Made by a program: the position numbers and the translations under genes. The notes below the pieces were generated by a model. It made no database searches and was not told the origin of the DNA. It worked only from the letters and a program-made list of their open reading frames with translations. Positions 1 to 60,426 of a stretch of DNA of 64,000 nucleotides are shown in pieces (position 1 is the first letter of the stretch; every line of letters starts with the position of its first letter). The DNA comes from Siphonodentalium dalli. Its lineage: Eukaryota > Mollusca > Scaphopoda > Gadilida > Siphonodentaliidae. The stretch spans positions 252,776,484 to 252,840,483 of the forward strand of contig CP136064.1 of assembly GCA_032622095.1 (NCBI GenBank), given 5' to 3'.

Positions 1-74
1 GGGATTCGAACCCACGCCGGGAAGACCCGACTGCGACCTGAACGCAGCGCATTAGACCACTCGGCCATCCTGAC
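1..74 (-). tRNA. tRNA-Leu(CAG), 3' end cut by window edge
   Basis: Copy preceding unit 1. About ten bases of the 3' acceptor strand lie outside the window. The anticodon loop reads CAG, and the D stem carries the C-U mismatch also seen in units 3, 18, 21, 24 and 26. Confidence 0.85.
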
Positions 75-343
75 TACAGAAAGACTGCAACAGTATCCTG
101 CTCAAAGTGAGACAATGGTATTGTGGATATATTTTAGTTCCCTTCTGGCTGTCGTTGCATTCTTAACGCACACATCCGATTGCTGATTTTTTGGTGGGTA
201 TATGATAAATGTACGTGATTCTATATAGTTATATTATGGCTATTAAGTTTTCATAAACAGGCCTTCTTGGACATAAAACATAATTTTATATTTTGTTTTC
301 AAATCAGCGAAAATGCGTTATGAAGAGCACTGTTTTCATTACT

Positions 344-416
344 GTCCCAGTAGCTCAGCGGATAGAGCGCTGGACTTCTAATCCAGAGGCCGTGGGTTCG
401 ATCCCCACCTGGGATG
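344..416 (+). tRNA. tRNA-Arg(UCU), unit 1
   Basis: 73-nt cloverleaf, described here for all Arg copies. The acceptor GTCCCAG pairs with CTGGGAT (first pair G-U), with discriminator G73. The D arm is GCTC/GAGC, the anticodon stem CTGGA/TCCAG closes a 7-base loop with anticodon TCT, and the T stem GTGGG/CCCAC holds the B box GGTTCGATCC. There is no intron and no encoded CCA. It decodes AGA and, by wobble, AGG. The sequence closely resembles invertebrate tRNA-Arg(UCU) as I know it. A T5 run at 425-429 is a Pol III terminator. The gene is divergent from the preceding Leu gene across a 269-base AT-rich spacer. Confidence 0.96.
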
Positions 417-424
417 CACCGATA

Positions 425-429
425 TTTTT
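425..429 (+). terminator. Pol III terminator of tRNA-Arg, unit 1
   Basis: T5 run 9 bases after the gene; present at the same offset in all Arg copies inspected. Confidence 0.8.
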
Positions 430-516
430 AAATCTTGGAATCAAAATTCGGTCGTCGTGCCTTGCTGACCTGCAAAGCGATTGTTGACAAACTGTTGAAT
501 AACGAATATAATGTCT

Positions 517-523
517 TATAAAA
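517..523 (+). promoter_or_regulatory. TATA-like element upstream of tRNA-Gly(CCC), unit 1
   Basis: TATAAAA lies 18-24 bases before the mature 5' end, a position where upstream TATA-like boxes assist TFIIIB at some tRNA genes. It is conserved in the units inspected. A role is inference; the internal A and B boxes are the main promoter. Confidence 0.4.
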
Positions 524-540
524 TGGTGTATTTATCGTAA

Positions 541-611
541 GCGCCGCTGGTGTAGTGGTATCATGCAAGATTCCCATTCTTGCGACCCGGGTTCGATTCC
601 CGGGCGGCGCA
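541..611 (+). tRNA. tRNA-Gly(CCC), unit 1
   Basis: 71-nt cloverleaf, described here for all CCC copies. The acceptor GCGCCGC/GCGGCGC is fully paired with A73. The anticodon stem CAAGA/TCTTG closes the loop TTCCCAT (anticodon CCC, U33 present), and the T stem is CCGGG/CCCGG around TTCGATT. It reads GGG codons. To my knowledge it matches vertebrate tRNA-Gly(CCC) almost base for base, so the gene is under strong constraint. A T5 run at 621-625 follows. After the gene, copies differ by one TA dinucleotide (ATATATC or ATATC), which is a useful marker of unit ancestry. Confidence 0.96.
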
Positions 612-620
612 TATATCTAC

Positions 621-625
621 TTTTT
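621..625 (+). terminator. Pol III terminator of tRNA-Gly(CCC), unit 1
   Basis: T5 run 10 bases downstream (8 in copies lacking the extra TA). Confidence 0.8.
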
Positions 626-723
626 CAGTTAAATATGACAGGCCATAATTTAGCTGACATTTCTAATGGATTCAATTTTTAACAGAGGAATGTCATTTTA
701 GAAAACCACCATTATTACCATGG

Positions 724-795
724 AGCAGAGTGGCGCAGTGGTAGCGTGCTGGGCCCATAACCCAGAGGTCCGAGGATCGAAACCTCGCTCTGCTA
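724..795 (+). tRNA. tRNA-iMet(CAU) initiator, unit 1
   Basis: 72-nt initiator tRNA, described here for all iMet copies. Initiator hallmarks are visible: A1-U72 as first pair (AGCAGAG/CTCTGCT), three consecutive G-C pairs at the bottom of the anticodon stem (CTGGG/CCCAG), C33 before the CAT anticodon, and a T loop ATCGAAA with A54 and A60 instead of T54. It would deliver methionine to the start codon with eIF2. A T4 run at 799-802 follows. 25 of the 44 copies keep this consensus; ten share a 70-nt form with a broken anticodon arm. Confidence 0.96.
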
Positions 796-798
796 ATA

Positions 799-802
799 TT
801 TT
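799..802 (+). terminator. Pol III terminator of tRNA-iMet, unit 1
   Basis: T4 run 3 bases after the gene, the shortest and closest of the five terminators. Confidence 0.7.
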
Positions 803-952
803 CGTCAAGGGGAGAGGAAGGAAGAATTATCACTTTGTTTGAAACTAAATACAGTAAGAATGTGCGTGTGTGTTTTAATGTTTATATTAAAATATGGTTT
901 TATTTATTATTGCTAGCAAATTAAAAAAAACGCTTCTTAAATGAATCGTGCA

Positions 953-983
953 CATGCATTTCAAGGGAGACTCGAAATGCATG
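953..983. repeat. Conserved perfect 10-bp hairpin in iMet-Gly(GCC) spacer
   Basis: CATGCATTTC (953-962) and GAAATGCATG (974-983) form a perfect inverted repeat around an 11-base loop. It lies 131 bases before tRNA-Gly(GCC) in almost every unit. Unit 4 (A to T in the right arm) and unit 7 (C to T in the left arm) break one pair. Units 34, 36, 43 and 45 carry an extra CATG repeat in the left arm. The role is unknown: it could be a protein site, a processing signal or chance structure homogenised with the array. Confidence 0.6.
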
Positions 984-1083
984 ACTTGTCCAGTCTATCG
1001 TTATAAAGTTCAAAGTCGCGTTGACTTCTCGACAACAAATGTGCTAGCTGCTCAAGAAGCTAAATTTGCGTTCATATCTCGCC

Positions 1084-1154
1084 GCATCGGTGGTTCAGTG
1101 GTAGAATGCTCGCCTGCCACGCGGGCGACCCGGGTTCGATTCCCGGCCGATGCA
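1084..1154 (+). tRNA. tRNA-Gly(GCC), unit 1
   Basis: 71-nt cloverleaf, described here for all GCC copies. The acceptor GCATCGG/CCGATGC is fully paired with A73. The anticodon loop is CTGCCAC (anticodon GCC, U33 present), and the T arm CCGGG TTCGATT CCCGG supplies the B box. It reads GGC and GGU. It is close to metazoan tRNA-Gly(GCC) as I know it. The terminator is T7 at 1162-1168; in units 17, 19, 20, 22-26 and 37 it is reduced to T4 by a G. The gene converges on tRNA-Leu across a 161-base spacer. Confidence 0.96.
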
Positions 1155-1161
1155 AAATAAG

Positions 1162-1168
1162 TTTTTTT
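1162..1168 (+). terminator. Pol III terminator of tRNA-Gly(GCC), unit 1
   Basis: T7 run 7 bases after the gene, the strongest terminator of the unit. Confidence 0.8.
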
Positions 1169-1304
1169 CACTGATTTTGTTTGTGGATATCCACCTCATT
1201 TTGGACTATGCAGTTTAATTGGGAACTTGAGAAAAACAAATTTCATTGGCACATAAATTTGTTTAAAGAAAACGGACGGACTTGCGATTCGCATTTCATC
1301 GAGC

Positions 1305-1308
1305 AAAA
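1305..1308 (-). terminator. Pol III terminator of tRNA-Leu, unit 1
   Basis: AAAA on the + strand is T4 on the Leu strand, 7 bases past the gene. It is conserved except in unit 28, where it is interrupted. Confidence 0.7.
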
Positions 1309-1315
1309 TTACTGT

Positions 1316-1399
1316 TGTCCGAAGTGGGATTCGAAACCACGCCGGGAAGACCCGACTGCGACCTGAACGCAGCGCCTTAGACCACTCGGCCATCCTGAC
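1316..1399 (-). tRNA. tRNA-Leu(CAG), unit 1
   Basis: 84-nt class II tRNA, described here for all Leu copies. The acceptor GTCAGGA pairs with TTCTGAC in the best copies, with A73. The anticodon stem CTGCG/CGCAG closes TTCAGGT (anticodon CAG, reads CUG). The long variable arm is CGGG-TCTT-CCCG, and the T arm is GTGGG TTCGAAT CCCAC. This copy has an A4-G69 acceptor mismatch and a T-stem mismatch (GTGGT), both also in units 4 and 8. The gene is on the opposite strand from the other four. Confidence 0.85.
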
Positions 1400-1668
1400 T
1401 ACAGAAAGACTGCAACAGTATCCTGCTCAAAGTGAGACAATGGTATTGTGGATATATTTTAGTTCCCTTCTGGCTGTCGTTGCATTCTTAACGCACACAT
1501 CCGATTGCTGATTTTTTGGTGGGTATATGATAAATGTACGTGATTCTATATAGTTATATTATGGCTATTAAGTTTTCATAAACAGGCCTTCTTGGACATA
1601 AAACATAATTTTATATTTTGTTTTCAAATCAGCGAAAATGCGTTATGAAGAGCACTGTTTTCATTACT

Positions 1669-1741
1669 GTCCCAGTAGCTCAGCGGATAGAGCGCTGGAC
1701 TTCTAATCCAGAGGCCGTGGGTTCGATCCCCACCTGGGATG
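1669..1741 (+). tRNA. tRNA-Arg(UCU), unit 2
   Basis: No change from consensus seen. Confidence 0.96.
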
Positions 1742-1865
1742 CACAGATATTTTTAAATCTTGGAATCAAAATTCGGTCGTCGTGCCTTGCTGACCTGCAA
1801 AGCGATTGTTGACAAACTGTTGAATAACGAATATAATGTCTTATAAAATGGTGTATTTATCGTAA

Positions 1866-1936
1866 GCGCCGCTGGTGTAGTGGTATCATGCAAGATTCCC
1901 ATTCTTGCGACCCGGGTTCGATTCCCGGGCGGCGCA
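1866..1936 (+). tRNA. tRNA-Gly(CCC), unit 2
   Basis: No change from consensus seen. Confidence 0.96.
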
Positions 1937-2048
1937 TATATCTACTTTTTCAGTTAAATATGACAGGCCATAATTTAGCTGACATTTCTAATGGATTCAA
2001 TTTTTAACAGAGGAATGTCATTTTAGAAAACCACCATTATTACCATGG

Positions 2049-2118
2049 AGCAGAGTGGCGCAGTGGTAGCGTGCAGGGCCCATAACCCGAGTCCGAGGAT
2101 CGAAACCTCGCTCTGCTA
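2049..2118 (+). tRNA. tRNA-iMet(CAU), degenerate 70-nt form, unit 2
   Basis: First of ten copies of the 70-nt form. The anticodon stem reads CAGGG against CCCGA, so only the three lower G-C pairs survive, and two bases are missing from the 3' stem/variable region. Acceptor, D and T arms are intact. It is probably non-functional or weak. Confidence 0.6.
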
Positions 2119-2406
2119 ATATTTTCGTCAAGGGGAGAGGAAGGAAGAATTATCACTTTGTTTGAAAGTAAATACAGTAAGAATGTGCGTGTGTGTTTTA
2201 ATGTTTATATTAAAATATGGTTTTATTTATTATTGCTAGCAAATTAAAATAAACGCTTCTTAAATGAATCGTGCACATGCATTTCAAGGGAGACTCGAAA
2301 TGCATGACTTGTCCAGTCTATCGTTATAAAGTTCAAAGTCGCGTTGACTTCTCGACAACAAATGTGCTAGCTGCTCAAGAAGCTAAATTTGCGTTCATAT
2401 CTCGCC

Positions 2407-2477
2407 GCATCGGTGGTTCAGTGGTAGAATGCTCGCCTGCCACGCGGGCGACCCGGGTTCGATTCCCGGCCGATGCA
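2407..2477 (+). tRNA. tRNA-Gly(GCC), unit 2
   Basis: No change from consensus seen. Confidence 0.96.
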
Positions 2478-2638
2478 AAATAAGTTTTTTTCACTGATTT
2501 TGTTTGTGGATATCCACCTCATTTTGGACTATGCAGTTTAATTGGGAACTTGAGAAAAACAAATTTTATTGGCACATAAATTTGTTTAAAGAAAACGGAC
2601 GGACTTGCGATTCGCATTTCATCGAGCAAAATTACTGT

Positions 2639-2722
2639 TGTCCGAAGTGGGATTCGAACCCACGCCGGGAAGACCCGACTGCGACCTGAACGCAGCCCCT
2701 TAGACCACTCGGCCATCCTGAC
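2639..2722 (-). tRNA. tRNA-Leu(CAG), unit 2
   Basis: A4-G69 acceptor mismatch plus a D-stem change (GGC to GGG), shared with units 5 and 9. Confidence 0.8.
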
Positions 2723-2991
2723 TACAGAAAGACTGCAACAGTATCCTGCTCAAAGTGAGACAATGGTATTGTGGATATATTTTAGTTCCCTTCTGGCTGT
2801 CGTTGCATTCTTAACGCACACATCCGATTGCTGATTTTTTGGTGGGTATATGATAAATGTACGTGATTCTATATAGTTATATTATGGCTATTAAGTTTTC
2901 ATAAACAGGCCTTCTTGGACATAAAACATAATTTTATATTTTGTTTTCAAATCAGCGAAAATGCGTTATGAAGAGCACTGTTTTCATTACT

Positions 2992-3064
2992 GTCCCAGTA
3001 GCTCAGCGGATAGAGCGCTGGACTTCTAATCCAGAGGCCGTGGGTTCGATCCCCACCTGGGATG
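2992..3064 (+). tRNA. tRNA-Arg(UCU), unit 3
   Basis: No change from consensus seen. Confidence 0.96.
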
Positions 3065-3188
3065 CACAGATATTTTTAAATCTTGGAATCAAAATTCGGT
3101 CGTCGTGCCTTGCTGACCTGCAAAGCGATTGTTGACAAACTGTTGAATAACGAATATAATGTCTTATAAAATGGTGTATTTATCGTAA

Positions 3189-3259
3189 GCGCCGCTGGTG
3201 TAGTGGTATCATGCAAGATTCCCATTCTTGCGACCCGGGTTCGATTCCCGGGCGGCGCA
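3189..3259 (+). tRNA. tRNA-Gly(CCC), unit 3
   Basis: No change from consensus seen. Confidence 0.96.
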
Positions 3260-3369
3260 TATCTACTTTTTCAGTTAAATATGACAGGCCATAATTTAGC
3301 TGACATTTCTAATGGATTCAATTTTTAACAGAGGAATGTCATTTTAGAAAACCACCATTATTACCATGG

Positions 3370-3433
3370 AGCAGAGTGGCGCAGTGGTAGCGTGCTGGGC
3401 CCATAACCCGAGGATCGAAACCTCGCTCTGCTA
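3370..3433 (+). pseudogene. tRNA-iMet pseudogene, 8-base deletion, unit 3
   Basis: 64-nt copy. Eight bases spanning the end of the 3' anticodon stem, the variable region and the first T-stem base are missing, so the anticodon arm cannot close fully and the variable loop is gone. The deletion could have arisen between two short CCGAG/CCCAGAG-like stretches. Confidence 0.85.
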
Positions 3434-3721
3434 ATATTTTCGTCAAGGGGAGAGGAAGGAAGAATTATCACTTTGTTTGAAACTAAATACAGTAAGAATG
3501 TGCGTGTGTGTTTTAATGTTTATATTAAAATATGGTTTTATTTATTATTGCTAGCAAATTAAAAAAAACGCTTCTTAAATGAATCGTGCACATGCATTTC
3601 AAGGGAGACTCGAAATGCATGACTTGTCCAGTCTATCGTTATAAAGTTCAAAGTCGCGTTGACTTCTCGACAACAAATGTGCTAGCTGCTCAAGAAGCTA
3701 AATTTGCGTTCATATCTCGCC

Positions 3722-3792
3722 GCATCGGTGGTTCAGTGGTAGAATGCTCGCCTGCCACGCGGGCGACCCGGGTTCGATTCCCGGCCGATGCA
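3722..3792 (+). tRNA. tRNA-Gly(GCC), unit 3
   Basis: No change from consensus seen. Confidence 0.96.
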
Positions 3793-3953
3793 AAATAAGT
3801 TTTTTTCACTGATTTTGTTTGTGGATATCCACCTCATTTTGGACTATGCAGTTTAATTGGGAACTTGAGAAAAACAAATTTCATTGGCACATAAATTTGT
3901 TTAAAGAAAACGGACGGACTTGCGATTCGCATTTCATCGAGCAAAATTACTGT

Positions 3954-4037
3954 TGTCAGAAGTGGGATTCGAACCCACGCCGGGAAGACCCGACTGCGAC
4001 CTGAACGCAGCGCATTAGACCACTCGGCCATCCTGAC
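3954..4037 (-). tRNA. tRNA-Leu(CAG), unit 3
   Basis: Acceptor fully paired; D-stem C-U mismatch (GGC to TGC). Confidence 0.85.
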
Positions 4038-4306
4038 TACAGAAAGACTGCAACAGTATCCTGCTCAAAGTGAGACAATGGTATTGTGGATATATTTTAG
4101 TTCCCTTCTGGCTGTCGTTGCATTCTTAACGCACACATCCGATTGCTGATTTTTTGGTGGGTATATGATAAATGTACGTGATTCTATATAGTTATATTAT
4201 GGCTATTAAGTTTTCATAAACAGGCCTTCTTGGACATAAAACATAATTTTATATTTTGTTTTCAAATCAGCGAAAATGCGTTATGAAGAGCACTGTTTTC
4301 ATTACT

Positions 4307-4379
4307 GTCCCAGTAGCTCAGCGGATAGAGCGCTGGACTTCTAATCCAGAGGCCGTGGGTTCGATCCCCACCTGGGATG
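4307..4379 (+). tRNA. tRNA-Arg(UCU), unit 4
   Basis: No change from consensus seen. Confidence 0.96.
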
Positions 4380-4503
4380 CACCGATATTTTTAAATCTTG
4401 GAATCAAAATTCGGTCGTCGTGCCTTGCTGACCTGCAAAGCGATTGTTGACAAACTGTTGAATAACGAATATAATGTCTTATAAAATGGTGTATTTATCG
4501 TAA

Positions 4504-4574
4504 GCGCCGCTGGTGTAGTGGTATCATGCAAGATTCCCATTCTTGCGACCCGGGTTCGATTCCCGGGCGGCGCA
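4504..4574 (+). tRNA. tRNA-Gly(CCC), unit 4
   Basis: No change from consensus seen. Confidence 0.96.
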
Positions 4575-4686
4575 TATATCTACTTTTTCAGTTAAATATG
4601 ACAGGCCATAATTTAGCTGACATTTCTAATGGATTCAATTTTTAACAGAGGAATGTCATTTTAGAAAACCACCATTATTACCATGG

Positions 4687-4758
4687 AGCAGAGTGGCGCA
4701 GTGGTAGCGTGCTGGGCCCATAACCCAGAGGTCCGAGGATCGAAACCTCGCTCTGCTA
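4687..4758 (+). tRNA. tRNA-iMet(CAU), unit 4
   Basis: Consensus 72-nt copy. Confidence 0.96.
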
Positions 4759-5046
4759 ATATTTTCGTCAAGGGGAGAGGAAGGAAGAATTATCACTTTG
4801 TTTGAAACTAAATACAGTAAGAATGTGCGTGTGTGTTTTAATGTTTATATTAAAATATGGTTTTATTTATTATTGCTAGCAAATTAAAAAAAACGCTTCT
4901 TAAATGAATCGTGCACATGCATTTCAAGGGAGACTCGAATTGCATGACTTGTCCAGTCTATCGTTATAAAGTTCAAAGTCGCGTTGACTTCTCGACAACA
5001 AATGTGCTAGCTGCTCAAGAAGCTAAATTTGCGTTCATATCTCGCC

Positions 5047-5117
5047 GCATCGGTGGTTCAGTGGTAGAATGCTCGCCTGCCACGCGGGCGACCCGGGTTC
5101 GATTCCCGGCCGATGCA
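5047..5117 (+). tRNA. tRNA-Gly(GCC), unit 4
   Basis: Consensus; the upstream hairpin has one broken pair. Confidence 0.96.
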
Positions 5118-5278
5118 AAATAAGTTTTTTTCACTGATTTTGTTTGTGGATATCCACCTCATTTTGGACTATGCAGTTTAATTGGGAACTTGAGAAAAAC
5201 AAATTTCATTGGCACATAAATTTGTTTAAAGAAAACGGACGGACTTGCGATTCGCATTTCATCGAGCAAAATTACTGT

Positions 5279-5362
5279 TGTCCGAAGTGGGATTCGAAAC
5301 CACGCCGGGAAGACCCGACTGCGACCTGAACGCAGCGCCTTAGACCACTCGGCCATCCTGAC
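5279..5362 (-). tRNA. tRNA-Leu(CAG), unit 4
   Basis: Acceptor and T-stem mismatches as in unit 1. Confidence 0.8.
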
Positions 5363-5631
5363 TACAGAAAGACTGCAACAGTATCCTGCTCAAAGTGAGA
5401 CAATGGTATTGTGGATATATTTTAGTTCCCTTCTGGCTGTCGTTGCATTCTTAACGCACACATCCGATTGCTGATTTTTTGGTGGGTATATGATAAATGT
5501 ACGTGATTCTATATAGTTATATTATGGCTATTAAGTTTTCATAAACAGGCCTTCTTGGACATAAAACATAATTTTATATTTTGTTTTCAAATCAGCGAAA
5601 ATGCGTTATGAAGAGCACTGTTTTCATTACT

Positions 5632-5704
5632 GTCCCAGTAGCTCAGCGGATAGAGCGCTGGACTTCTAATCCAGAGGCCGTGGGTTCGATCCCCACCTGG
5701 GATG
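5632..5704 (+). tRNA. tRNA-Arg(UCU), unit 5
   Basis: No change from consensus seen. Confidence 0.96.
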
Positions 5705-5828
5705 CACAGATATTTTTAAATCTTGGAATCAAAATTCGGTCGTCGTGCCTTGCTGACCTGCAAAGCGATTGTTGACAAACTGTTGAATAACGAATATAAT
5801 GTCTTATAAAATGGTGTATTTATCGTAA

Positions 5829-5899
5829 GCGCCGCTGGTGTAGTGGTATCATGCAAGATTCCCATTCTTGCGACCCGGGTTCGATTCCCGGGCGGCGCA
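5829..5899 (+). tRNA. tRNA-Gly(CCC), unit 5
   Basis: No change from consensus seen. Confidence 0.96.
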
Positions 5900-6011
5900 T
5901 ATATCTACTTTTTCAGTTAAATATGACAGGCCATAATTTAGCTGACATTTCTAATGGATTCAATTTTTAACAGAGGAATGTCATTTTAGAAAACCACCAT
6001 TATTACCATGG

Positions 6012-6081
6012 AGCAGAGTGGCGCAGTGGTAGCGTGCAGGGCCCATAACCCGAGTCCGAGGATCGAAACCTCGCTCTGCTA
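6012..6081 (+). tRNA. tRNA-iMet(CAU), degenerate 70-nt form, unit 5
   Basis: 70-nt form, as in unit 2. Confidence 0.6.
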
Positions 6082-6369
6082 ATATTTTCGTCAAGGGGAG
6101 AGGAAGGAAGAATTATCACTTTGTTTGAAAGTAAATACAGTAAGAATGTGCGTGTGTGTTTTAATGTTTATATTAAAATATGGTTTTATTTATTATTGCT
6201 AGCAAATTAAAATAAACGCTTCTTAAATGAATCGTGCACATGCATTTCAAGGGAGACTCGAAATGCATGACTTGTCCAGTCTATCGTTATAAAGTTCAAA
6301 GTCGCGTTGACTTCTCGACAACAAATGTGCTAGCTGCTCAAGAAGCTAAATTTGCGTTCATATCTCGCC

Positions 6370-6440
6370 GCATCGGTGGTTCAGTGGTAGAATGCTCGCC
6401 TGCCACGCGGGCGACCCGGGTTCGATTCCCGGCCGATGCA
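6370..6440 (+). tRNA. tRNA-Gly(GCC), unit 5
   Basis: No change from consensus seen. Confidence 0.96.
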
Positions 6441-6601
6441 AAATAAGTTTTTTTCACTGATTTTGTTTGTGGATATCCACCTCATTTTGGACTATGCAGT
6501 TTAATTGGGAACTTGAGAAAAACAAATTTCATTGGCACATAAATTTGTTTAAAGAAAACGGACGGACTTGCGATTCGCATTTCATCGAGCAAAATTACTG
6601 T

Positions 6602-6685
6602 TGTCCGAAGTGGGATTCGAACCCACGCCGGGAAGACCCGACTGCGACCTGAACGCAGCCCCTTAGACCACTCGGCCATCCTGAC
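6602..6685 (-). tRNA. tRNA-Leu(CAG), unit 5
   Basis: Acceptor mismatch and D-stem change as in unit 2. Confidence 0.8.
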
Positions 6686-6954
6686 TACAGAAAGACTGCA
6701 ACAGTATCCTGCTCAAAGTGAGACAATGGTATTGTGGATATATTTTAGTTCCCTTCTGGCTGTCGTTGCATTCTTAACGCACACATCCGATTGCTGATTT
6801 TTTGGTGGGTATATGATAAATGTACGTGATTCTATATAGTTATATTATGGCTATTAAGTTTTCATAAACAGGCCTTCTTGGACATAAAACATAATTTTAT
6901 ATTTTGTTTTCAAATCAGCGAAAATGCGTTATGAAGAGCACTGTTTTCATTACT

Positions 6955-7027
6955 GTCCCAGTAGCTCAGCGGATAGAGCGCTGGACTTCTAATCCAGAGG
7001 CCGTGGGTTCGATCCCCACCTGGGATG
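6955..7027 (+). tRNA. tRNA-Arg(UCU), unit 6
   Basis: No change from consensus seen. Confidence 0.96.
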
Positions 7028-7151
7028 CACCGATATTTTTAAATCTTGGAATCAAAATTCGGTCGTCGTGCCTTGCTGACCTGCAAAGCGATTGTTGACA
7101 AACTGTTGAATAACGAATATAATGTCTTATAAAATGGTGTATTTATCGTAA

Positions 7152-7222
7152 GCGCCGCTGGTGTAGTGGTATCATGCAAGATTCCCATTCTTGCGACCCG
7201 GGTTCGATTCCCGGGCGGCGCA
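7152..7222 (+). tRNA. tRNA-Gly(CCC), unit 6
   Basis: No change from consensus seen. Confidence 0.96.
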
Positions 7223-7334
7223 TATATCTACTTTTTCAGTTAAATATGACAGGCCATAATTTAGCTGACATTTCTAATGGATTCAATTTTTAACAGAGGA
7301 ATGTCATTTTAGAAAACCACCATTATTACCATGG

Positions 7335-7404
7335 AGCAGAGTGGCGCAGTGGTAGAGTGCAGGGCCCATAACCCGAGTCCGAGGATCGAAACCTCGCTCT
7401 GCTA
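7335..7404 (+). tRNA. tRNA-iMet(CAU), degenerate 70-nt form, unit 6
   Basis: 70-nt form with an extra C to A after the D loop (GTAGAG), which breaks a D-stem pair. Confidence 0.5.
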
Positions 7405-7692
7405 ATATTTTCGTCAAGGGGGGAGGAAGGAAGAATTATCACTTTGTTTGAAAGTAAATACAGTAAGAATGTGCGTGTGTGTTTTAATGTTTATATTAAA
7501 ATATGGTTTTATTTATTATTGCTAGCAAATTAAAATAAACGCTTCTTAAATGAATCGTGCACATGCATTTCAAGGGAGACTCGAAATGCATGACTTGTCC
7601 AGTCTATCGTTATAAAGTTCAAAGTCGCGTTGACTTCTCGACAACAAATGTGCTAGCTGCTCAAGAAGCTAAATTTGCGTTCATATGTCGCC

Positions 7693-49295: not shown

Positions 49296-49368
49296 GTCCC
49301 GGTAGCTCAGCGGATAGAGCGCTGGACTTCTAATCCAGAGGCCGTGGGTTCGATCCCCACCTGGGATG
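49296..49368 (+). tRNA. tRNA-Arg(UCU), unit 38
   Basis: A6 to G gives a G-U pair in the acceptor. Confidence 0.93.
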
Positions 49369-49492
49369 CACAGATATTTTTAAATCTTGGAATCAAAATT
49401 CGGTCGTCGTGCCTTGCTGACCTGCAAAGCGATTGTTGACAAACTGTTGAATAACGAATATAATGTCTTATAAAATGGTGTATTTATCGTAA

Positions 49493-49563
49493 GCGCCGCT
49501 GGTGTAGTGGTATCATGCAAGATTCCCATTCTTGCGACCCGGGTTCGATTCCCGGGCGGCGCA
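49493..49563 (+). tRNA. tRNA-Gly(CCC), unit 38
   Basis: Consensus gene, but followed directly by a Leu gene: the iMet and Gly(GCC) of this unit are deleted. Confidence 0.96.
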
Positions 49564-49712
49564 TATCTACTTTTTCAGTTAAATATGACAGGCCATAATT
49601 TAGCTGACATTTCTAATGGATTCAATTTTTAACAGAGGAATGTCATTTTAGAAATTTGTTTAAAGAAAACGGACGGACTTGCGATTCGCATTTCATCGAG
49701 CAAAATTACTGT

Positions 49713-49796
49713 TGTCAGAAGTGGGATTCGAACCCACGCCTGGAAGACCCGACTGCGACCTGATCGCAGCGCCTTAGACCACTCGGCCATCCTGAC
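49713..49796 (-). tRNA. tRNA-Leu(CAG), mini-unit copy a, unit 38
   Basis: U32 to A in the anticodon loop plus a variable-arm mismatch; anticodon still CAG. Confidence 0.87.
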
Positions 49797-50040
49797 TACA
49801 GAAAGACTGCAACAGTATCCTGCTCAAAGTGAGACAATGGTATTGTGGATATATTTTAGTTCCCTTCTGGCTGTCGTTGCATTCTTAACGCACACGTCCG
49901 ATTGCTGATTTTTTGACAGGCCATAATTTAGCTGACATTTCTAATGGATTCAATTTTTAACAGAGGAATGTCATTTTAGAAATTTGTTTAAAGAAAACGG
50001 ACGGACTTGCGATTCGCATTTCATCGAGCAAAATTACTGT

Positions 50041-50124
50041 TGTCAGAAGTGGGATTCGAACCCACGCCTGGAAGACCCGACTGCGACCTGATCGCAGCGC
50101 CTTAGACCACTCGGCCATCCTGAC
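50041..50124 (-). tRNA. tRNA-Leu(CAG), mini-unit copy b, unit 38
   Basis: Same A32 and variable-arm changes as copy a, 328 bases away. Confidence 0.87.
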
Positions 50125-50393
50125 TACAGAAAGACTGCAACAGTATCCTGCTCAAAGTGAGACAATGGTATTGTGGATATATTTTAGTTCCCTTCTGGCT
50201 GTCGTTGCATTCTTAACGCACACATCCGATTGCTGATTTTTTGGTGGGTATATGATAAATGTACGTGATTCTATATAGTTATATTATGGCTATTAAGTTT
50301 TCATAAACAGGCCTTCTTGGACATAAAACATAATTTTATATTTTGTTTTCAAATCAGCGAAAATGCGTTATGAAGAGCACTGTTTTCATTACT

Positions 50394-51788: not shown

Positions 51789-51912
51789 CACAGATATTTT
51801 TAAATCTTGGAATCAAAATTCGGTCGTCGTGCCTTGCTGACCTGCAAAGCGATTGTTGACAAACTGTTGAATAACGAATATAATGTCTTATAAAATGGTG
51901 TATTTATCGTAA

Positions 51913-51983
51913 GCGCCGCTGGTGTAGTGGTATCATGCAAGATTCCCATTCTTGCGACCCGGGTTCGATTCCCGGGCGGCGCA
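51913..51983 (+). tRNA. tRNA-Gly(CCC), unit 40
   Basis: No change from consensus seen. Confidence 0.96.
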
Positions 51984-52093
51984 TATCTACTTTTTCAGTT
52001 AAATATGACAAGCCATAATTTAGCTGACATTTCTAATGGATTCAATTTTTAACAGAGGAATGTCATTTTAGAAAACCACCATTATTACCATGG

Positions 52094-52165
52094 AGCAGAG
52101 TGGCGCAGTGGTAGCGTGCTGGGCCCATAACCCAGAGGTCCGAGGATCGAAACCTCGCTCTGCTA
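52094..52165 (+). tRNA. tRNA-iMet(CAU), unit 40
   Basis: Consensus 72-nt copy. Confidence 0.96.
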
Positions 52166-52453
52166 ATATTTTCGTCAAGGGGAGAGGAAGGAAGAATTAT
52201 CACTTTGTTTGAAAGTAAATACAGTAAGAATGTGCGTGTGTGTTTTAATGTTTATATTAAAATATGGTTTTATTTATTATTGCTAGCAAATTAAAAAAAA
52301 CGCTTCTTAAATGAATCGTGCACATGCATTTCAAGGGAGACTCGAAATGCATGACTTGTCCAGTCTATCGTTATAAAGTTCAAAGTCGCGTTGACTTCTC
52401 GACAACAAATGTGCTAGCTGCTCAAGAAGCTAAATTTGCGTTCATATCTCGCC

Positions 52454-52524
52454 GCATCGGTGGTTCGGTGGTAGAATGCTCGCCTGCCACGCGGGCGACC
52501 CGGGTTCGATTCCCGGCCGATGCA
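52454..52524 (+). tRNA. tRNA-Gly(GCC), unit 40
   Basis: D-loop A to G as in unit 35. Confidence 0.93.
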
Positions 52525-52685
52525 AAATAAGTTTTTTTCACTGATTTTGTTTGTGGATATCCACCTCATTTTGGACTATGCAGTTTAATTGGGAACTTGA
52601 GAAAAACAAATTTCATTGGCACATAAATTTGTTTAAAGAAAACGGACGGACTTGCGATTCGCATTTCATCGAGCAAAATTACTGT

Positions 52686-52769
52686 TGTCAGAAGTGGGTT
52701 TCGAACCCACTCCGGGAAGACCCGACTGCGACCTGAACGCAGCGCCTTAGACCACTCGGCCATCCTGAC
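52686..52769 (-). tRNA. tRNA-Leu(CAG), unit 40
   Basis: Stems intact; T-loop T to A (TTCGAAA) and a C to A just before the T stem, both shared with unit 42. Confidence 0.9.
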
Positions 52770-53038
52770 TACAGAAAGACTGCAACAGTATCCTGCTCAA
52801 AGTGAGACAATGGTATTGTGGATATATTTTAGTTCCCTTCTGGCTGTCGTTGCATTCTTAACGCACACATCCGATTGCTGATTTTTTGGTGGGTATATGA
52901 TAAATGTACGTGATTCTATATAGTTATATTATGGCTATTAAGTTTTCATAAACAGGCCTTCTTGGACATAAAACATAATTTTATATTTTGTTTTCAAATC
53001 AGCGAAAATGCGTTATGAAGAGCACTGTTTTAATTACT

Positions 53039-53111
53039 GTCCCAGTAGCTCAGCGGATAGAGCGCTGGACTTCTAATCCAGAGGCCGTGGGTTCGATCCC
53101 CACCTGGGATG
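53039..53111 (+). tRNA. tRNA-Arg(UCU), unit 41
   Basis: No change from consensus seen. Confidence 0.96.
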
Positions 53112-53235
53112 CACAGATATTTTTAAATCTTGGAATCAAAATTCGGCCGTCGTGCCTTGCTGACCTGCAAAGCGATTGTTGACAAACTGTTGAATAACGA
53201 ATATAATGTCTTATAAAATGGTGTATTTATCGTAA

Positions 53236-53306
53236 GCGCCGCTGGTGTAGTGGTATCATGCAAGATTCCCATTCTTGCGACCCGGGTTCGATTCCCGGGC
53301 GGCGCA
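53236..53306 (+). tRNA. tRNA-Gly(CCC), unit 41
   Basis: No change from consensus seen. Confidence 0.96.
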
Positions 53307-53416
53307 TATCTACTTTTTCAGTTAAATATGACAGGCCATAATTTAGCTGACATTTCTAATGGATTCAATTTTTAACAGAGGAATGTCATTTTAGAAAACC
53401 ACCATTATTACCATGG

Positions 53417-53488
53417 AGCAGAGTGGCGCAGTGGTAGCGTGCTGGGCCCATAACCCAGAGGTCAGAGGATCGAAACCTCGCTCTGCTA
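53417..53488 (+). tRNA. tRNA-iMet(CAU), T-stem variant, unit 41
   Basis: Outer T-stem mismatch as in unit 39. Confidence 0.82.
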
Positions 53489-53776
53489 ATATTTTCGTCA
53501 AGGGGAGAGGAAGGAAGAATTATCACTTTGTTTGAAAGTAAATACAGTAAGAATGTGCGTGTGTGTTTTAATGTTTATATTAAAATATGGTTTTATTTAT
53601 TATTGCTAGCAAATTAAAAAAAACGCTTCTTAAATGAATCGTGCACATGCATTTCAAGGGAGACTCGAAATGCATGACTTGTCCAGTCTATCGTTATAAA
53701 GTTCAAAGTCGCGTTGACTTCTCGACAACAAATGTGCTAGCTGCTCAAGAAGCTAAATTTGCGTTCATATCTCGCC

Positions 53777-53847
53777 GCATCGGTGGTTCAGTGGTAGAAT
53801 GCTCGCCTGCCACGCGGGCGACCCGGGTTCGATTCCCGGCCGATGCA
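53777..53847 (+). tRNA. tRNA-Gly(GCC), unit 41
   Basis: No change from consensus seen. Confidence 0.96.
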
Positions 53848-54007
53848 AAATAAGTTTTTTTCACTGATTTTGTTTGTTATATCCACCTCATTTTGGACTA
53901 TGCAGTTTAATTGGGAACTTGAGAAAAACAAATTTCATTGGCACATAAATTTGTTTAAAGAAAACGGACGGACTTGCGATTCGCATTTCATCGAGCAAAA
54001 TTACTGT

Positions 54008-54091
54008 TGTCAGAAGTGGGATTCGAACCCACGCCTGGAAGACCCGACTGCGACCTGAACGCAGCGCCTTAGACCACTCGGCCATCCTGAC
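54008..54091 (-). tRNA. tRNA-Leu(CAG), unit 41
   Basis: Variable-arm stem mismatch only. Confidence 0.88.
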
Positions 54092-54360
54092 TACAGAAAG
54101 ACTGCAACAGTATCCTGCTCAAAGTGAGACAATGGTATTGTGGATATATTTTAGTTCCCTTCTGGCTGTCGTTGCATTCTTAACGCACACATCCGATTGC
54201 TGATTTTTTGGTGGGTATATGATAAATGTACGTGATTCTATATAGTTATATTATGGCTATTAAGTTTTCATAAACAGGCCTTCTTGGACATAAAACATAA
54301 TTTTATATTTTGTTTTCAAATCAGCGAAAATGCGTTATGAAGAGCACTGTTTTCATTACT

Positions 54361-54433
54361 GTCCCAGTAGCTCAGCGGATAGAGCGCTGGACTTCTAATC
54401 CAGAGGCCGTGGGTTCGATCCCCACCTGGGATG
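54361..54433 (+). tRNA. tRNA-Arg(UCU), unit 42
   Basis: No change from consensus seen. Confidence 0.96.
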
Positions 54434-54557
54434 CACAGATATTTTTAAATCTTGGAATCAAAATTCGGTCGTCGTGCCTTGCTGACCTGCAAAGCGATTG
54501 TTGACAAACTGTTGAATAACGAATATAATGTCTTATAAAATGGTGTATTTATCGTAA

Positions 54558-54628
54558 GCGCCGCTGGTGTAGTGGTATCATGCAAGATTCCCATTCTTGC
54601 GACCCGGGTTCGATTCCCGGGCGGCGCA
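54558..54628 (+). tRNA. tRNA-Gly(CCC), unit 42
   Basis: No change from consensus seen. Confidence 0.96.
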
Positions 54629-54738
54629 TATCTACTTTTTCAGTTAAATATGACAAGCCATAATTTAGCTGACATTTCTAATGGATTCAATTTTTAACAG
54701 AGGAATGTCATTTTAGAAAACCACCATTATTACCATGG

Positions 54739-54810
54739 AGCAGAGTGGCGCAGTGGTAGCGTGCTGGGCCCATAACCCAGAGGTCCGAGGATCGAAACCT
54801 CGCTCTGCTA
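54739..54810 (+). tRNA. tRNA-iMet(CAU), unit 42
   Basis: Consensus 72-nt copy. Confidence 0.96.
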
Positions 54811-55098
54811 ATATTTTCGTCAAGGGGAGAGGAAGGAAGAATTATCACTTTGTTTGAAAGTAAATACAGTAAGAATGTGCGTGTGTGTTTTAATGTTTAT
54901 ATTAAAATATGGTTTTATTTATTATTGCTAGCAAATTAAAAAAAACGCTTCTTAAATGAATCGTGCACATGCATTTCAAGGGAGACTCGAAATGCATGAC
55001 TTGTCCAGTCTATCGTTATAAAGTTCAAAGTCGCGTTGACTTCTCGACAACAAATGTGCTAGCTGCTCAAGAAGCTAAATTTGCGTTCATATCTCGCC

Positions 55099-55169
55099 GC
55101 ATCGGTGGTTCGGTGGTAGAATGCTCGCCTGCCACGCGGGCGACCCGGGTTCGATTCCCGGCCGATGCA
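55099..55169 (+). tRNA. tRNA-Gly(GCC), unit 42
   Basis: D-loop A to G as in unit 40. Confidence 0.93.
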
Positions 55170-55330
55170 AAATAAGTTTTTTTCACTGATTTTGTTTGTG
55201 GATATCCACCTCATTTTGGACTATGCAGTTTAATTGGGAACTTGAGAAAAACAAATTTCATTGGCACATAAATTTGTTTAAAGAAAACGGACGGACTTGC
55301 GATTCGCATTTCATCGAGCAAAATTACTGT

Positions 55331-55414
55331 TGTCAGAAGTGGGTTTCGAACCCACTCCGGGAAGACCCGACTGCGACCTGAACGCAGCGCCTTAGACCAC
55401 TCGGCCATCCTGAC
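55331..55414 (-). tRNA. tRNA-Leu(CAG), unit 42
   Basis: Same two changes as unit 40, 2645 bases earlier. Confidence 0.9.
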
Positions 55415-55683
55415 TACAGAAAGACTGCAACAGTATCCTGCTCAAAGTGAGACAATGGTATTGTGGATATATTTTAGTTCCCTTCTGGCTGTCGTTGCAT
55501 TCTTAACGCACACATCCGATTGCTGATTTTTTGGTGGGTATATGATAAATGTACGTGATTCTATATAGTTATATTATGGCTATTAAGTTTTCATAAACAG
55601 GCCTTCTTGGACATAAAACATAATTTTATATTTTGTTTTCAAATCAGCGAAAATGCGTTATGAAGAGCACTGTTTTAATTACT

Positions 55684-55756
55684 GTCCCAGTAGCTCAGCG
55701 GATAGAGCGCTGGACTTCTAATCCAGAGGCCGTGGGTTCGATCCCCACCTGGGATG
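55684..55756 (+). tRNA. tRNA-Arg(UCU), unit 43
   Basis: No change from consensus seen. Confidence 0.96.
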
Positions 55757-55880
55757 CACAGATATTTTTAAATCTTGGAATCAAAATTCGGTCGTCGTGC
55801 CTTGCTGACCTGCAAAGCGATTGTTGACAAACTGTTGAATAACGAATATAATGTCTTATAAAATGGTGTATTTATCGTAA

Positions 55881-55951
55881 GCGCCGCTGGTGTAGTGGTA
55901 TCATGCAAGATTCCCATTCTTGCGACCCGGGTTCGATTCCCGGGCGGCGCA
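55881..55951 (+). tRNA. tRNA-Gly(CCC), unit 43
   Basis: No change from consensus seen. Confidence 0.96.
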
Positions 55952-56061
55952 TATCTACTTTTTCAGTTAAATATGACAAGCCATAATTTAGCTGACATTT
56001 CTAATGGATTCAATTTTTAACAGAGGAATGTCATTTTAGAAAACCACCATTATTACCATGG

Positions 56062-56133
56062 AGCAGAGTGGCGCAGTGGTAGCGTGCTGGGCCCATAACC
56101 CAGAGGTCCGAGGATCGAAACCTCGCTCTGCTA
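56062..56133 (+). tRNA. tRNA-iMet(CAU), unit 43
   Basis: Consensus 72-nt copy. Confidence 0.96.
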
Positions 56134-56425
56134 ATATTTTCGTCAAGGGGAGAGGAAGGAAGAATTATCACTTTGTTTGAAAGTAAATACAGTAAGAATG
56201 TGCGTGTGTGTTTTAATGTTTATATTAAAATAAGGTTTTATTTATTATTGCTAGCAAATTAAAAAAAACGCTTCTTAAATGAATCGTGCACATGCATGCA
56301 TTTCAAGGGAGACTCGAAATGCATGACTTGTCCAGTCTATCGTTATAAAGTTCAAAGTCGCGTTGACTTCTCGACAACAAATGTGCTAGCTGCTCAAGAA
56401 GCTAAATTTGCGTTCATATCTCGCC

Positions 56426-56496
56426 GCATCGGTGGTTCAGTGGTAGAATGCTCGCCTGCCACGCGGGCGACCCGGGTTCCATTCCCGGCCGATGCA
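56426..56496 (+). tRNA. tRNA-Gly(GCC), B-box variant, unit 43
   Basis: T-loop G to C (TTCCATT) alters an invariant B-box base, which should impair TFIIIC binding; shared with unit 44. Confidence 0.75.
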
Positions 56497-56650
56497 AAAT
56501 AAATTTTTTCACTGATTTTGTTTGTGGATATCCACCTCATTTTGGACTATGCAGTTTAATTGGGAACTTGAGAAAAACAAATTTCATTGGCACATAAATT
56601 TGTTTAAAGAAAACGGACGGACTTCGCATTTCATCGAGCAAAATTACTGT

Positions 56651-56734
56651 TGTCAGAAGTGGGATTCGAACCCACGCCGGGAAGACCCGACTGCGACCTG
56701 AACGCAGCGCCTTAGACCACTCGGCCATCCTGAC
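56651..56734 (-). tRNA. tRNA-Leu(CAG), unit 43
   Basis: Fully paired copy. Confidence 0.96.
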
Positions 56735-57007
56735 TACAGAAAGACTGCAACAGTATCTTGCTCAAAGTGAGACAATGGTATTGTGGATATATTTTAGTTC
56801 CCTTCTGGCTGTCGTTGCATTCTTAACGCACACATCCGATTGCTGATTTTTTGGTGGGTATATATATGATAAATGTACGTGATTCTATATAGTTATATTA
56901 TGGCTATTAAGTTTTCATAAACAGGCCTTCTTGGACATAAAACATAATTTTATATTTTGTTTTCAAATCAGCGAAAATGCGTTATGAAGAGCACTGTTTT
57001 CATTACT

Positions 57008-57080
57008 GTCCCGGTAGCTCAGAGGATAGAGCGCTGGACTTCTAATCCAGAGGCCGTGGGTTCGATCCCCACCTGGGATA
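57008..57080 (+). tRNA. tRNA-Arg(UCU), variant, unit 44
   Basis: A6 to G (wobble), a D-loop C to A, and discriminator G73 to A. Confidence 0.82.
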
Positions 57081-57204
57081 CACAGATATTTTTAAATCTT
57101 GGAATCAAAATTCGGTCGTCGTGCCTTGCTGACCTGCAAAGCGATTGTTGACAAACTGTTGAATAACGAATATAATGTCTTATAAAATGGTGTATTTATC
57201 GTAA

Positions 57205-57275
57205 GCGCCGCTGGTGTAGTGGTATCATGCAAGATTCCCATTCTTGCGACCCGGGTTCGATTCCCGGGCGGCGCA
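57205..57275 (+). tRNA. tRNA-Gly(CCC), unit 44
   Basis: No change from consensus seen. Confidence 0.96.
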
Positions 57276-57385
57276 TATCTACTTTTTCAGTTAAATATGA
57301 CAGGCCATAATTTTGCTGACATTTCTAATGGATTCAATTTTTAACAGAGGAATGTCATTTTAGAAAACCACCATTATTACCATGG

Positions 57386-57457
57386 AGCAGAGTGGCGCAG
57401 TGGTAGCGTGCTGGGCCCATAACCCAGAGGTCCGAGGATCGAAACCTCGCTCTGCTA
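57386..57457 (+). tRNA. tRNA-iMet(CAU), unit 44
   Basis: Consensus 72-nt copy. Confidence 0.96.
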
Positions 57458-57744
57458 ATATTTTCGTCAAGGGGAGAGGAAGGAAGAATTATCACTTTGT
57501 TTGAAAGTAAATACAGTAAGAATGTGCGTGTGTGTTTTAATGTTTATATTAAGATATGGTTTTATTTATTATTGCTAGCAAATTAAAAAAACGCTTCTTA
57601 AATGAATCGTGCACATGCATTTCAAGGGAGACTCGAAATGCATGACTTGTCCAGTCTATCGTTATAAAGTTCAAAGTCGCGTTGACTTCTCGACAACAAA
57701 TGTGCTAGCTGCTCAAGAAGCTAAATTTGCGTTCATATCTCGCC

Positions 57745-57815
57745 GCATCGGTGGTTCAGTGATAGAATGCTCGCCTGCCACGCGGGCGACCCGGGTTCCA
57801 TTCCCGGCCGATGCA
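57745..57815 (+). tRNA. tRNA-Gly(GCC), A- and B-box variant, unit 44
   Basis: D-loop G to A (AGTGATAG) in the A box plus the unit 43 B-box change; likely poorly transcribed. Confidence 0.68.
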
Positions 57816-57976
57816 AAATAAGTTTTTTTCACTGATTTTGTTTGTGGATATCCACCTCATTTTGGACTATGCAGTTTAATTGGGAACTTGAGAAAAACAA
57901 ATTTCATTGGCACATAAATTTGTTTAAATAAAACGGACGGACTTGCGATTCGCATTTCATCGAGCAAAATTACTGT

Positions 57977-58060
57977 TGTCAGAAGTGGGATTCGAACCCA
58001 CGCCGGGAAGACCCGACTGCGACCTGAACGCAGCGCCTTAGACCACTCGGCCATCCTGAC
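57977..58060 (-). tRNA. tRNA-Leu(CAG), unit 44
   Basis: Fully paired copy. Confidence 0.96.
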
Positions 58061-58329
58061 TACAGAAAGACTGCAACAGTATCCTGCTCAAAGTGAGACA
58101 ATGGTATTGTGGATATATTTTAGTTCCCTTCTGGCTGTCGTTGCATTCTTAACGCACACATCCGATTGCTGATTTTTTGGTGGGTATATGATAAATGTAC
58201 GTGATTCTATATAGTTATATTATGGCTATTAAGTTTTCATAAACAGGCCTTCTTGGACATAACACATAATTTTATATTTTGTTTTCAAATCAGCGAAAAT
58301 GCGTTATGAAGAGCACTGTTTTCATTACT

Positions 58330-58402
58330 GTCCCAGTAGCTCAGCGGATAGAGCGCTGGACTTCTAATCCAGAGGCCGTGGGTTCGATCCCCACCTGGGA
58401 TG
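58330..58402 (+). tRNA. tRNA-Arg(UCU), unit 45
   Basis: No change from consensus seen. Confidence 0.96.
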
Positions 58403-58526
58403 CACAGATATTTTTAAATCTTGGAATCAAAATTCGGTCGTCGTGCCTTGCTGACCTGCAAAGCGATTGTTGACAAACTGTTGAATAACGAATATAATGT
58501 CTTATAAAATGGTGTATTTCTCGTAA

Positions 58527-58597
58527 GCGCCGCTGGTGTAGTGGTATCATGCAAGATTCCCATTCTTGCGACCCGGGTTCGATTCCCGGGCGGCGCA
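58527..58597 (+). tRNA. tRNA-Gly(CCC), unit 45
   Basis: No change from consensus seen. Confidence 0.96.
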
Positions 58598-58707
58598 TAT
58601 CTACTTTTTCAGTTAAATATGACAGGCCATAATTTAGCTGACATTTCTAATGGATTCAATTTTTAACAAAGGAATGTCATTTTAGAAAACCACCATTATT
58701 ACCATGG

Positions 58708-58779
58708 AGCAGAGTGGCGCAGTGGTAGCGTGCTTGGCCCATAACCCAGAGGTCCGAGGATCGAAACCTCGCTCTGCTA
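58708..58779 (+). tRNA. tRNA-iMet(CAU), anticodon-stem variant, unit 45
   Basis: CTGGG becomes CTTGG, breaking one of the three G-C pairs that mark initiators. Confidence 0.75.
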
Positions 58780-59071
58780 ATATTTTCGTCAAGGGGAGAG
58801 GAAGGAAGAATTATCACTTTGTTTGAAAGTAAATACAGTAAGAATGTGCGTGTGTGTTTTAATGTTTATATTAAAATATGGTTTTATTTATTATTGCTAG
58901 CAAATTAAAAAAAACGCTTCTTAAATGAATCGTGCACATGCATGCATTTCAAGGGAGACTCGAAATGCATGACTTGTCCAGTCAATCGTTATAAAGTTCA
59001 AAGTCGCGTTGACTTCTCGACAACAAATGTGCTAGCTGCTCAAGAAGCTTAATTTGCGTTCATATCTCGCC

Positions 59072-59142
59072 GCATCGGTGGTTCAGTGGTAGAATGCCAG
59101 CCTGCCACGCGGGCGACCCGGGTTCGATTCCCGGCCGATTCA
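59072..59142 (+). tRNA. tRNA-Gly(GCC), degenerate, unit 45
   Basis: Two changes in the anticodon stem (CTCGC region reads CCAGC) and an acceptor G to T (GATTCA). Anticodon GCC kept; probably decaying. Confidence 0.6.
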
Positions 59143-59303
59143 AATTAAGTTTTTTTCACTGATTTTGTTTGTGGATATCCACCTCATTTTGGACTATGCA
59201 GTTTAATTGGGAACTTGAGAAAGAAAAATTTCATTGGCAGATAAATTTGTTTAAAGAAAACGGACGGACTTGCGATTCGCATTTCATCGAGCAAAATTAC
59301 TGT

Positions 59304-59388
59304 TGTCAGAAGTGGGATTCGAACCCACGCCGGGAAGACCCGACTGCGACCTGAACGAAGACCCGAGCGACCACTCGGCCATCCTGAC
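59304..59388 (-). pseudogene. tRNA-Leu(CAG) pseudogene at array edge, unit 45
   Basis: 85 nt. The 3' half on the + strand is scrambled between the anticodon stem and the D arm (GAAGACCCGAGCGACC replaces the usual run), breaking the anticodon stem and D stem. T arm and acceptor are intact. It is the last recognisable gene before the array breaks off 51 bases later. Confidence 0.8.
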
Positions 59389-59439
59389 TACAGAAAGACT
59401 GCAACAGTATCCTGCTCAAAGTGAGACAATGGTATTGTG

Positions 59440-60389: not shown

Positions 60390-60426
60390 GACATAGCTAT
60401 CCAGCAACAGACCACTTAACAGTGGA

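Follow-up and report, generated by a model that had tools for sequence, protein, structure and literature searches.

Why does a mollusc genome carry the same short block of five different transfer RNA (tRNA) genes again and again at a single place? The question is raised by a stretch of 64,000 nucleotides of the scaphopod Siphonodentalium dalli (GenBank assembly GCA_032622095.1, contig CP136064.1, here called C4; C4:252776484–252840483). This whole stretch is referred to as the window, and positions are those of the window unless a contig is named. Positions 1–59439 consist of a ~1323-bp unit repeated head to tail, with 45 unit starts. Each unit encodes, in order, tRNA-Arg (TCT), tRNA-Gly (CCC), initiator tRNA-Met (iMet) and tRNA-Gly (GCC) on the plus strand, followed by tRNA-Leu (CAG) on the minus strand. 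The reading that we consider likely is that of a nuclear tRNA array that is read by RNA polymerase III (Pol III), provides a high gene dosage and is kept alike by unequal exchange.

The array was first described in an earlier note, made from the letters of the window alone, as a 1.32-kb five-tRNA unit repeated about 45 times and holding 225 tRNA loci. The unit and its repeat number agree with the 45 unit starts counted here. A census by BLAST, with the consensus genes as queries, also returns 225 loci, though not as five genes in each of 45 units: there are 45 Arg, 45 Gly-CCC, 44 iMet, 44 Gly-GCC and 47 Leu genes, the per-gene counts being shifted by one rearranged unit and by a truncated Leu gene at base 1. 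ARAGORN predicts 212 tRNA genes, every one within 344–59388, and Rfam gives 224 matches over gathering scores, all 150 of those listed belonging to RF00005. In the first full unit, ARAGORN places tRNA-Arg at 344–417 (+), tRNA-Gly (CCC) at 541–611 (+), initiator tRNA-Met (CAT) at 724–795 (+), tRNA-Gly (GCC) at 1084–1154 (+) and tRNA-Leu at 1316–1399 (−). The consensus sequence is found in 36 of the 45 Arg copies, 34 of the 45 Gly-CCC copies, 25 of the 44 iMet copies (11 carry a deletion) and 34 of the 44 Gly-GCC copies, and the 47 Leu copies fall into 12 alleles. Unit length is nearly constant, with 43 units of 1315–1325 bp, one of 1098 bp and a last unit that ends at 59439 within the Leu–Arg spacer, where mobile-element relics adjoin on the right. 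The GC content of the unit is 41%. Tandem Repeats Finder (score of at least 50) detects no short tandem repeats between the genes, its sole row in the array being a 328-bp duplication described below. Two features of animal multi-tRNA tandem arrays, mixed genes within the repeated unit and near-identical spacers, are both present. The initiator sequence type and the mobile-element frames beside the array would also suit an animal host.

The earlier note also held that the array continues past base 1, and it does so for ~464 kb further to the left. The genome comprises 2,226,750,531 bases on 9 contigs, and an exact 31-mer from the spacer between Gly-GCC and Leu has 304 copies in it, 257 in forward and 47 in reverse orientation. 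The same 31-mer read backwards has no match genome-wide, which excludes chance as the source of these copies. The 47 reversed copies make up two inverted blocks, with 24 copies at 252.362–252.393 Mb and 23 at 252.484–252.514 Mb of C4 (299,223,332 bases). For the forward copies, the listed positions put 100 from 252,312,550 to 252,535,369, and 136 more lie in the 264 kb that we examined. In all, 283 of the 304 copies are placed, every one in a single C4 locus with a span of ~523 kb; the remaining 21 forward copies would fit the stretch in between, and the complex probably holds all 304 units. The 264 kb contain 136 exact spacer copies against 150 Leu matches, so that the true number of units should lie about one-tenth above the spacer count. 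The same 264 kb yield at least 635 tRNA-like matches in the census and at least 584 ARAGORN calls, a few of which are probably wrong-strand readings, and gene counts outside the window are lower bounds throughout. Scaled by spacer copies, the whole complex would comprise ~1,300 genes. The size first given for the array was therefore right for the window and too small for the locus, which reaches ~523 kb, includes inverted blocks and has sister arrays elsewhere in the genome. A 35-mer from the spacer had no match in a viral contig set and none in a genome contig set.

The tRNA genes themselves are mostly intact in their cores. Length, anticodon and 17 scored base pairs are retained in 181 of the 225 loci, an upper estimate since the D-stem was left unscored. 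By gene, this test is passed by 41/45 Arg, 39/45 Gly-CCC, 28/44 iMet, 41/44 Gly-GCC and 32/47 Leu copies, with iMet faring worst. All 13 genes in the consensus units of three arrays, the present one and two of its sisters, are followed by a stretch of four or more T residues that starts 4–12 nt downstream. The initiator consensus has A1–U72, A54 and three G–C pairs in the anticodon stem, which we take to be the hallmarks of an initiator. Judged by the stem test and the consensus terminators, the genes look competent for Pol III, transcription itself being a separate matter. Each gene would be read from its own internal promoter to its own terminator, and the array could then supply five tRNAs, the initiator included, at very high gene dosage.

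These features bear on two readings in which tRNA production is not the main role of the array. The very high copy number, and the presence of some units with no more than part of the genes, might suggest a tRNA-derived satellite or a repeat of the short interspersed element (SINE) kind, devoid of gene function. We find this hardly credible, as the unit contains five complete canonical tRNAs with terminators in the consensus and all 283 placed spacer copies share one locus. We considered SINE or satellite membership explicitly, as a tRNA-like head joined to a non-tRNA body in dispersed copies, and rejected it; the unit has five complete genes, and the placed copies lie at a single locus. The array could alternatively be an element of chromosome structure, a boundary or a site of replication pausing that acts through TFIIIC or insulator proteins, with tRNA output secondary. 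There is a precedent in the human five-tRNA array at 1q23.3, which binds CTCF and has been proposed as a boundary (PMC4041453). In the present array, tRNA is the only family above the Rfam cut-off among the matches listed, and weak Rfam matches to two other families sit on tRNA genes; both points speak mildly against a structural role, which we regard as quite improbable.

The array is not alone in its genome. Scored RF00005 matches are found on contigs C4, C5 and C8 (63 scored of 112,462 first-look candidates). At C8 185996060–186122502, an extent defined by RF00005 matches, a unit of 1505–1517 bp carries Trp, Asp and Arg-TCT on the plus strand and Lys-CTT and Val-TAC on the minus strand; 25 kb of this array were read, giving 16 full units. 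An inverted piece lies near 186.27 Mb, and a related array at C8 189007949–189175961 mixes Trp–Asp–Lys(TTT) and Asp–Arg–Lys–Val parts. On C4, a 1523-bp unit with one Ala-CGC and two Ala-TGC genes occupies 190080068–190265500 and onward. A 33-mer from the spacer of this Ala array has 245 matches in the genome, all forward, and all 100 of those listed fall in this locus; RF00005 matches of a type that was not read extend beyond it to 190.40 Mb. C3 carries an Asn array from 135402641 with one gene per ~497 bp. An Asn pattern matches the genome exactly 303 + 44 = 347 times, and all 100 of the listed matches are in the C3 locus. Near 144.55 Mb on C5, five Thr genes occur in the 9 kb read. Altogether, 13 anticodon types are seen in arrays, in addition to the Thr cluster. 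A tentative His anticodon-arm pattern gave no matches in the stretches scanned. Rfam detects no 5S gene in window positions 54300–64000 or in four further stretches, which include the C8, Ala and Asn arrays.

Could the assembler have inflated a few true units into a long array? The earlier note named this as the outcome that would undo its reading, and the sequence makes it very improbable. The window holds 46 unit pieces (the 45 unit starts and a partial piece at base 1), and 41 of them are distinct. The longest exact repeat among them is a two-unit block of only 2,759 bp, found at 50388 and 53033, so that long reads can resolve the units. The complex also contains the two inverted blocks and insertions with duplicated flanks. 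One insertion of ~1.6 kb inside a unit has a duplicated flank of 6 bp, and a 1651-bp unit type, present in four copies, carries an insert of ~314 bp with a duplicated flank of 14 bp (one example aligned). The same tandem habit recurs, moreover, in four different arrays.

The pattern of differences between units fits a family under concerted evolution. Among the 43 near-full units the mean difference is 0.65% and the largest 1.36%, in agreement with the word ‘homogenised’ used of the spacers in the earlier note. Two of the 45 units, the rearranged one and the one that ends at 59439, are excluded from this comparison, from the counts of variable sites and from the Mantel and stem-purging tests. 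The further apart two units lie in the array, the more they differ (Mantel r 0.254, a value reached by 0 of 5000 permutations). Neighbours are therefore more alike than distant units, as in ribosomal DNA (rDNA), and the likeness to a 5S or rDNA array suggested at first sight holds for the repeat organization of this multi-tRNA unit. Five pairs of unit pieces are identical, and a two-unit block is repeated. The last unit (58330–59439) carries 18 substitutions, compared with 2–9 in the 43 near-full units. Such divergence is expected because the edge of an array takes little part in exchange. The last Leu gene of the array scores 32.1 bits in Rfam. We propose that unequal exchange and gene conversion between units would cause the array to grow, shrink and become homogenized, as in rDNA.

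Several unit types appear to record this process. The rearranged 1098-bp unit (49296–50393) lacks iMet and Gly-GCC and has a doubled Leu gene; a 328-bp direct repeat is present twice at 49586–50243, with one Leu gene in each copy (Tandem Repeats Finder, 99% matches). Shortened units recur across the 264 kb: a 989/998-bp type that lacks Arg and the beginning of Gly-CCC (20 copies), an 841-bp type (four copies), a 770-bp type without iMet and Gly-GCC (seven copies) and a 328-bp type with Leu only (two copies). The joints of the shortened units show overlaps of 1–3 bp (one example aligned per type), and those of the 328-bp repeat in the rearranged unit 2–3 bp. Ten of the 44 iMet copies in the window carry an allele with a net loss of 2 bp; in the example at 2049–2118 (+) the gene has 70 bases and a weakened anticodon stem, and the allele is likely to be a poor or dead gene. 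The frequency of this damaged allele and the recurrence of the shortened units suggest that exchange spreads good and bad units alike. Exchange would be blind in this respect, passing on damaged alleles and shortened units along with intact ones, a burden that the high copy number would make tolerable.

The distribution of variable sites within the unit provides a separate view of the genes. In the 43 window units, 41 of 371 tRNA positions vary, compared with 16 of 250 in the 25-bp flanks and 22 of 702 in the other spacer. The contrast between tRNA and all spacer (41/371 vs 38/952) corresponds to an odds ratio of 3.0 (p 4e-6). It is also seen when G and C positions are taken by themselves (31/231 vs 16/319, p 6e-4), persists at G and C outside CpG (21/162 vs 16/262, p 0.02) and is seen among variants found in a single unit (20/371 vs 25/952, p 0.017). 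At A and T positions in the window, the difference is not significant (10/140 in tRNA vs 22/633 in spacer, p 0.06). Of the changes in genes, 17 of 42 are of the C-to-A type, against 7 of 38 for spacers. A second large set, 59 units upstream of the window, gives 39/301 for tRNA, 18/200 for flanks and 35/716 for other spacer (genes vs all spacer, p 1.3e-4), and the 16 C8 units have a weak excess (tRNA 7/303 vs spacer 8/1141, p 0.023). Variable sites in gene bodies thus reach 2–3 times the spacer level in the two large sets and exceed it weakly in the third; all of these p values are too small because the units share ancestry. The gradient from gene to flank to spacer fits transcription-linked mutation. 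Work on mammalian tRNA genes reportedly supports such a gradient as the product of mutation linked to transcription. Conversion from diverged tRNA copies elsewhere is a possible alternative source of the excess. We rejected the general proposition of a constant excess of variation in tRNA bodies over spacers, as it failed in two of the five sets.

A number of observations weigh against the high-dosage reading. The stem test is failed by 16 of the 44 iMet and 15 of the 47 Leu copies. Purging of stem-breaking variants is not clear: 13 of 42 variants break a stem, against 16.1 expected from random site hits with the same base changes (P 0.18). This result gives no support to selection that purges broken copies, and any selection that acts on individual copies must be weak. 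The variant excess in tRNA is missing from the 20 short units (9/227 vs 30/762, p 1.0) and from the six Ala units (1/221 vs 9/1302, p 1.0), both of which are small sets. The iMet failures and the unclear purging would suit a mostly silent array, an expansion tolerated in closed chromatin while dispersed genes do the work. The Ser-Tyr-Tyr tandem array of Arabidopsis offers a parallel, being silent in most tissues (PMC12308677). We nevertheless consider a silent array unlikely here, given the large majority of loci that pass the stem test, the consensus genes with their terminators and a gradient of variable sites of the kind that fits transcribed genes. A Pol III-read array with damage diluted by dosage remains the reading that we prefer.

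A wider proposal, which we put forward tentatively and would not expect to hold without further support, is that most of the nuclear tRNA set has moved into a few tandem arrays, each specific to a chromosome, as in Entamoeba. If true, the supply of tRNA for translation rests on array-wide exchange and not on selection of single genes. The variant excess in gene bodies would then be a readable trace of the arrays and unit types that Pol III uses in the germline, and the short units that lack the excess would be silent. The array illustrates how such a locus evolves, through inverted blocks, recurring units born of deletion and a damaged initiator allele in about one-fourth of the window copies. 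It also offers a natural test of two ideas, the first that a tRNA family stays functional through gene dosage and not through selection on individual copies, the second that the density of variants is a mark of germline activity of Pol III.

The DNA to the right of the array (59440–64000) is of a different kind. It begins with a degenerate relic at 59440–60389 (+) that is presumably reverse-transcriptase-like, as judged by a motif. The long open frame of this relic has no Pfam match, and a homologue search with the frame at 59532–60386 returned 276 candidates, none at E 0.001. A frame at 61471–62259 (+) resembles a tyrosine recombinase (PF00589, E 1.1e-4; 22.4 bits, under the curated cut-off of 27.1) and may be a further mobile-element relic. 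A reverse transcriptase frame of a retroelement follows at 63401–64000 (+; PF00078, E 4.9e-16). Within this flank, Tandem Repeats Finder reports short tandem repeats of 40 and 46 bp at 62841–63130. Inside the array to the left of the window, an insertion of ~7.4 kb at C4:252681126–252688875 contains minus-strand stop-to-stop frames of 825, 366 and 330 aa and is a putative mobile element.

Xenopus is said to have a 3.18-kb unit with eight tRNAs, including initiator Met, in ~150 repeats, a gene set and unit that reportedly differ from the Arg–Gly–iMet–Gly–Leu unit. By analogy with Xenopus, the present array may serve the germline or the oocyte. Tandem arrays of the oocyte type, and separate oocyte and somatic tRNA gene systems, are described for this frog (PMC11500080, PMC3565088). 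Tandem tRNA arrays are also reported from the animals Hydractinia and Nematostella, in a paper that terms the organization unusual (PMC11067881). In a survey, tRNA clusters reach a very large size in Nematostella and teleosts, and the tRNA pairs of Nematostella, clawed frog and zebrafish are mostly mixed (PMC2888827). With the human array added to these, the contrast first drawn with a dispersed animal tRNA set overstated the rarity of such loci. Tandem tRNA arrays are said, for Phytophthora, to collapse in older assemblies (PMC9584435), so that their spread among animals is poorly known. In Hydractinia, ribosomal RNA, several small nuclear RNAs and U3 are arrayed as well (PMC11067881), a difference to be read with the scope of our genome-wide searches, which covered tRNA.

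There is a likeness in gene content to the human tRNA variable-number tandem repeat at 1q23.3, whose unit combines five tRNA genes on both strands, two of them Gly and one Leu, and is present 9–43 times at 98% identity (PMC4041453). The human unit is 7.3 kb long, GC-rich and has Glu and Asp where the present array has Arg and iMet (PMC4041453), whereas the scaphopod array has a 1.32-kb unit of 41% GC, 304 exact spacer copies and sister arrays. In genome-wide habit, there is a parallel in Entamoeba, with several arrays of one to five tRNA types per unit, mostly uniform within an isolate, for which concerted evolution has been proposed (PMC2652664). E. histolytica differs in its short tandem repeats between genes and in the 5S genes of some units (PMC2652664), neither of which was found in the DNA scanned here. 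In Phytophthora infestans, too, tandem arrays contain tRNA genes by the thousand; one chromosome carries some two-thirds of the tRNA families, copy number agrees with read depth, and unequal crossing-over has been proposed as the mechanism (PMC9584435). It differs in being an oomycete and in having single-gene, dimeric or trimeric units (PMC9584435). The Arg–Gly–iMet–Gly–Leu unit has no report in the literature searched, although a paper on the host genome could mention it. Tandem tRNA arrays are known as a kind; what is new is this particular unit, its size and the genome in which it is found.

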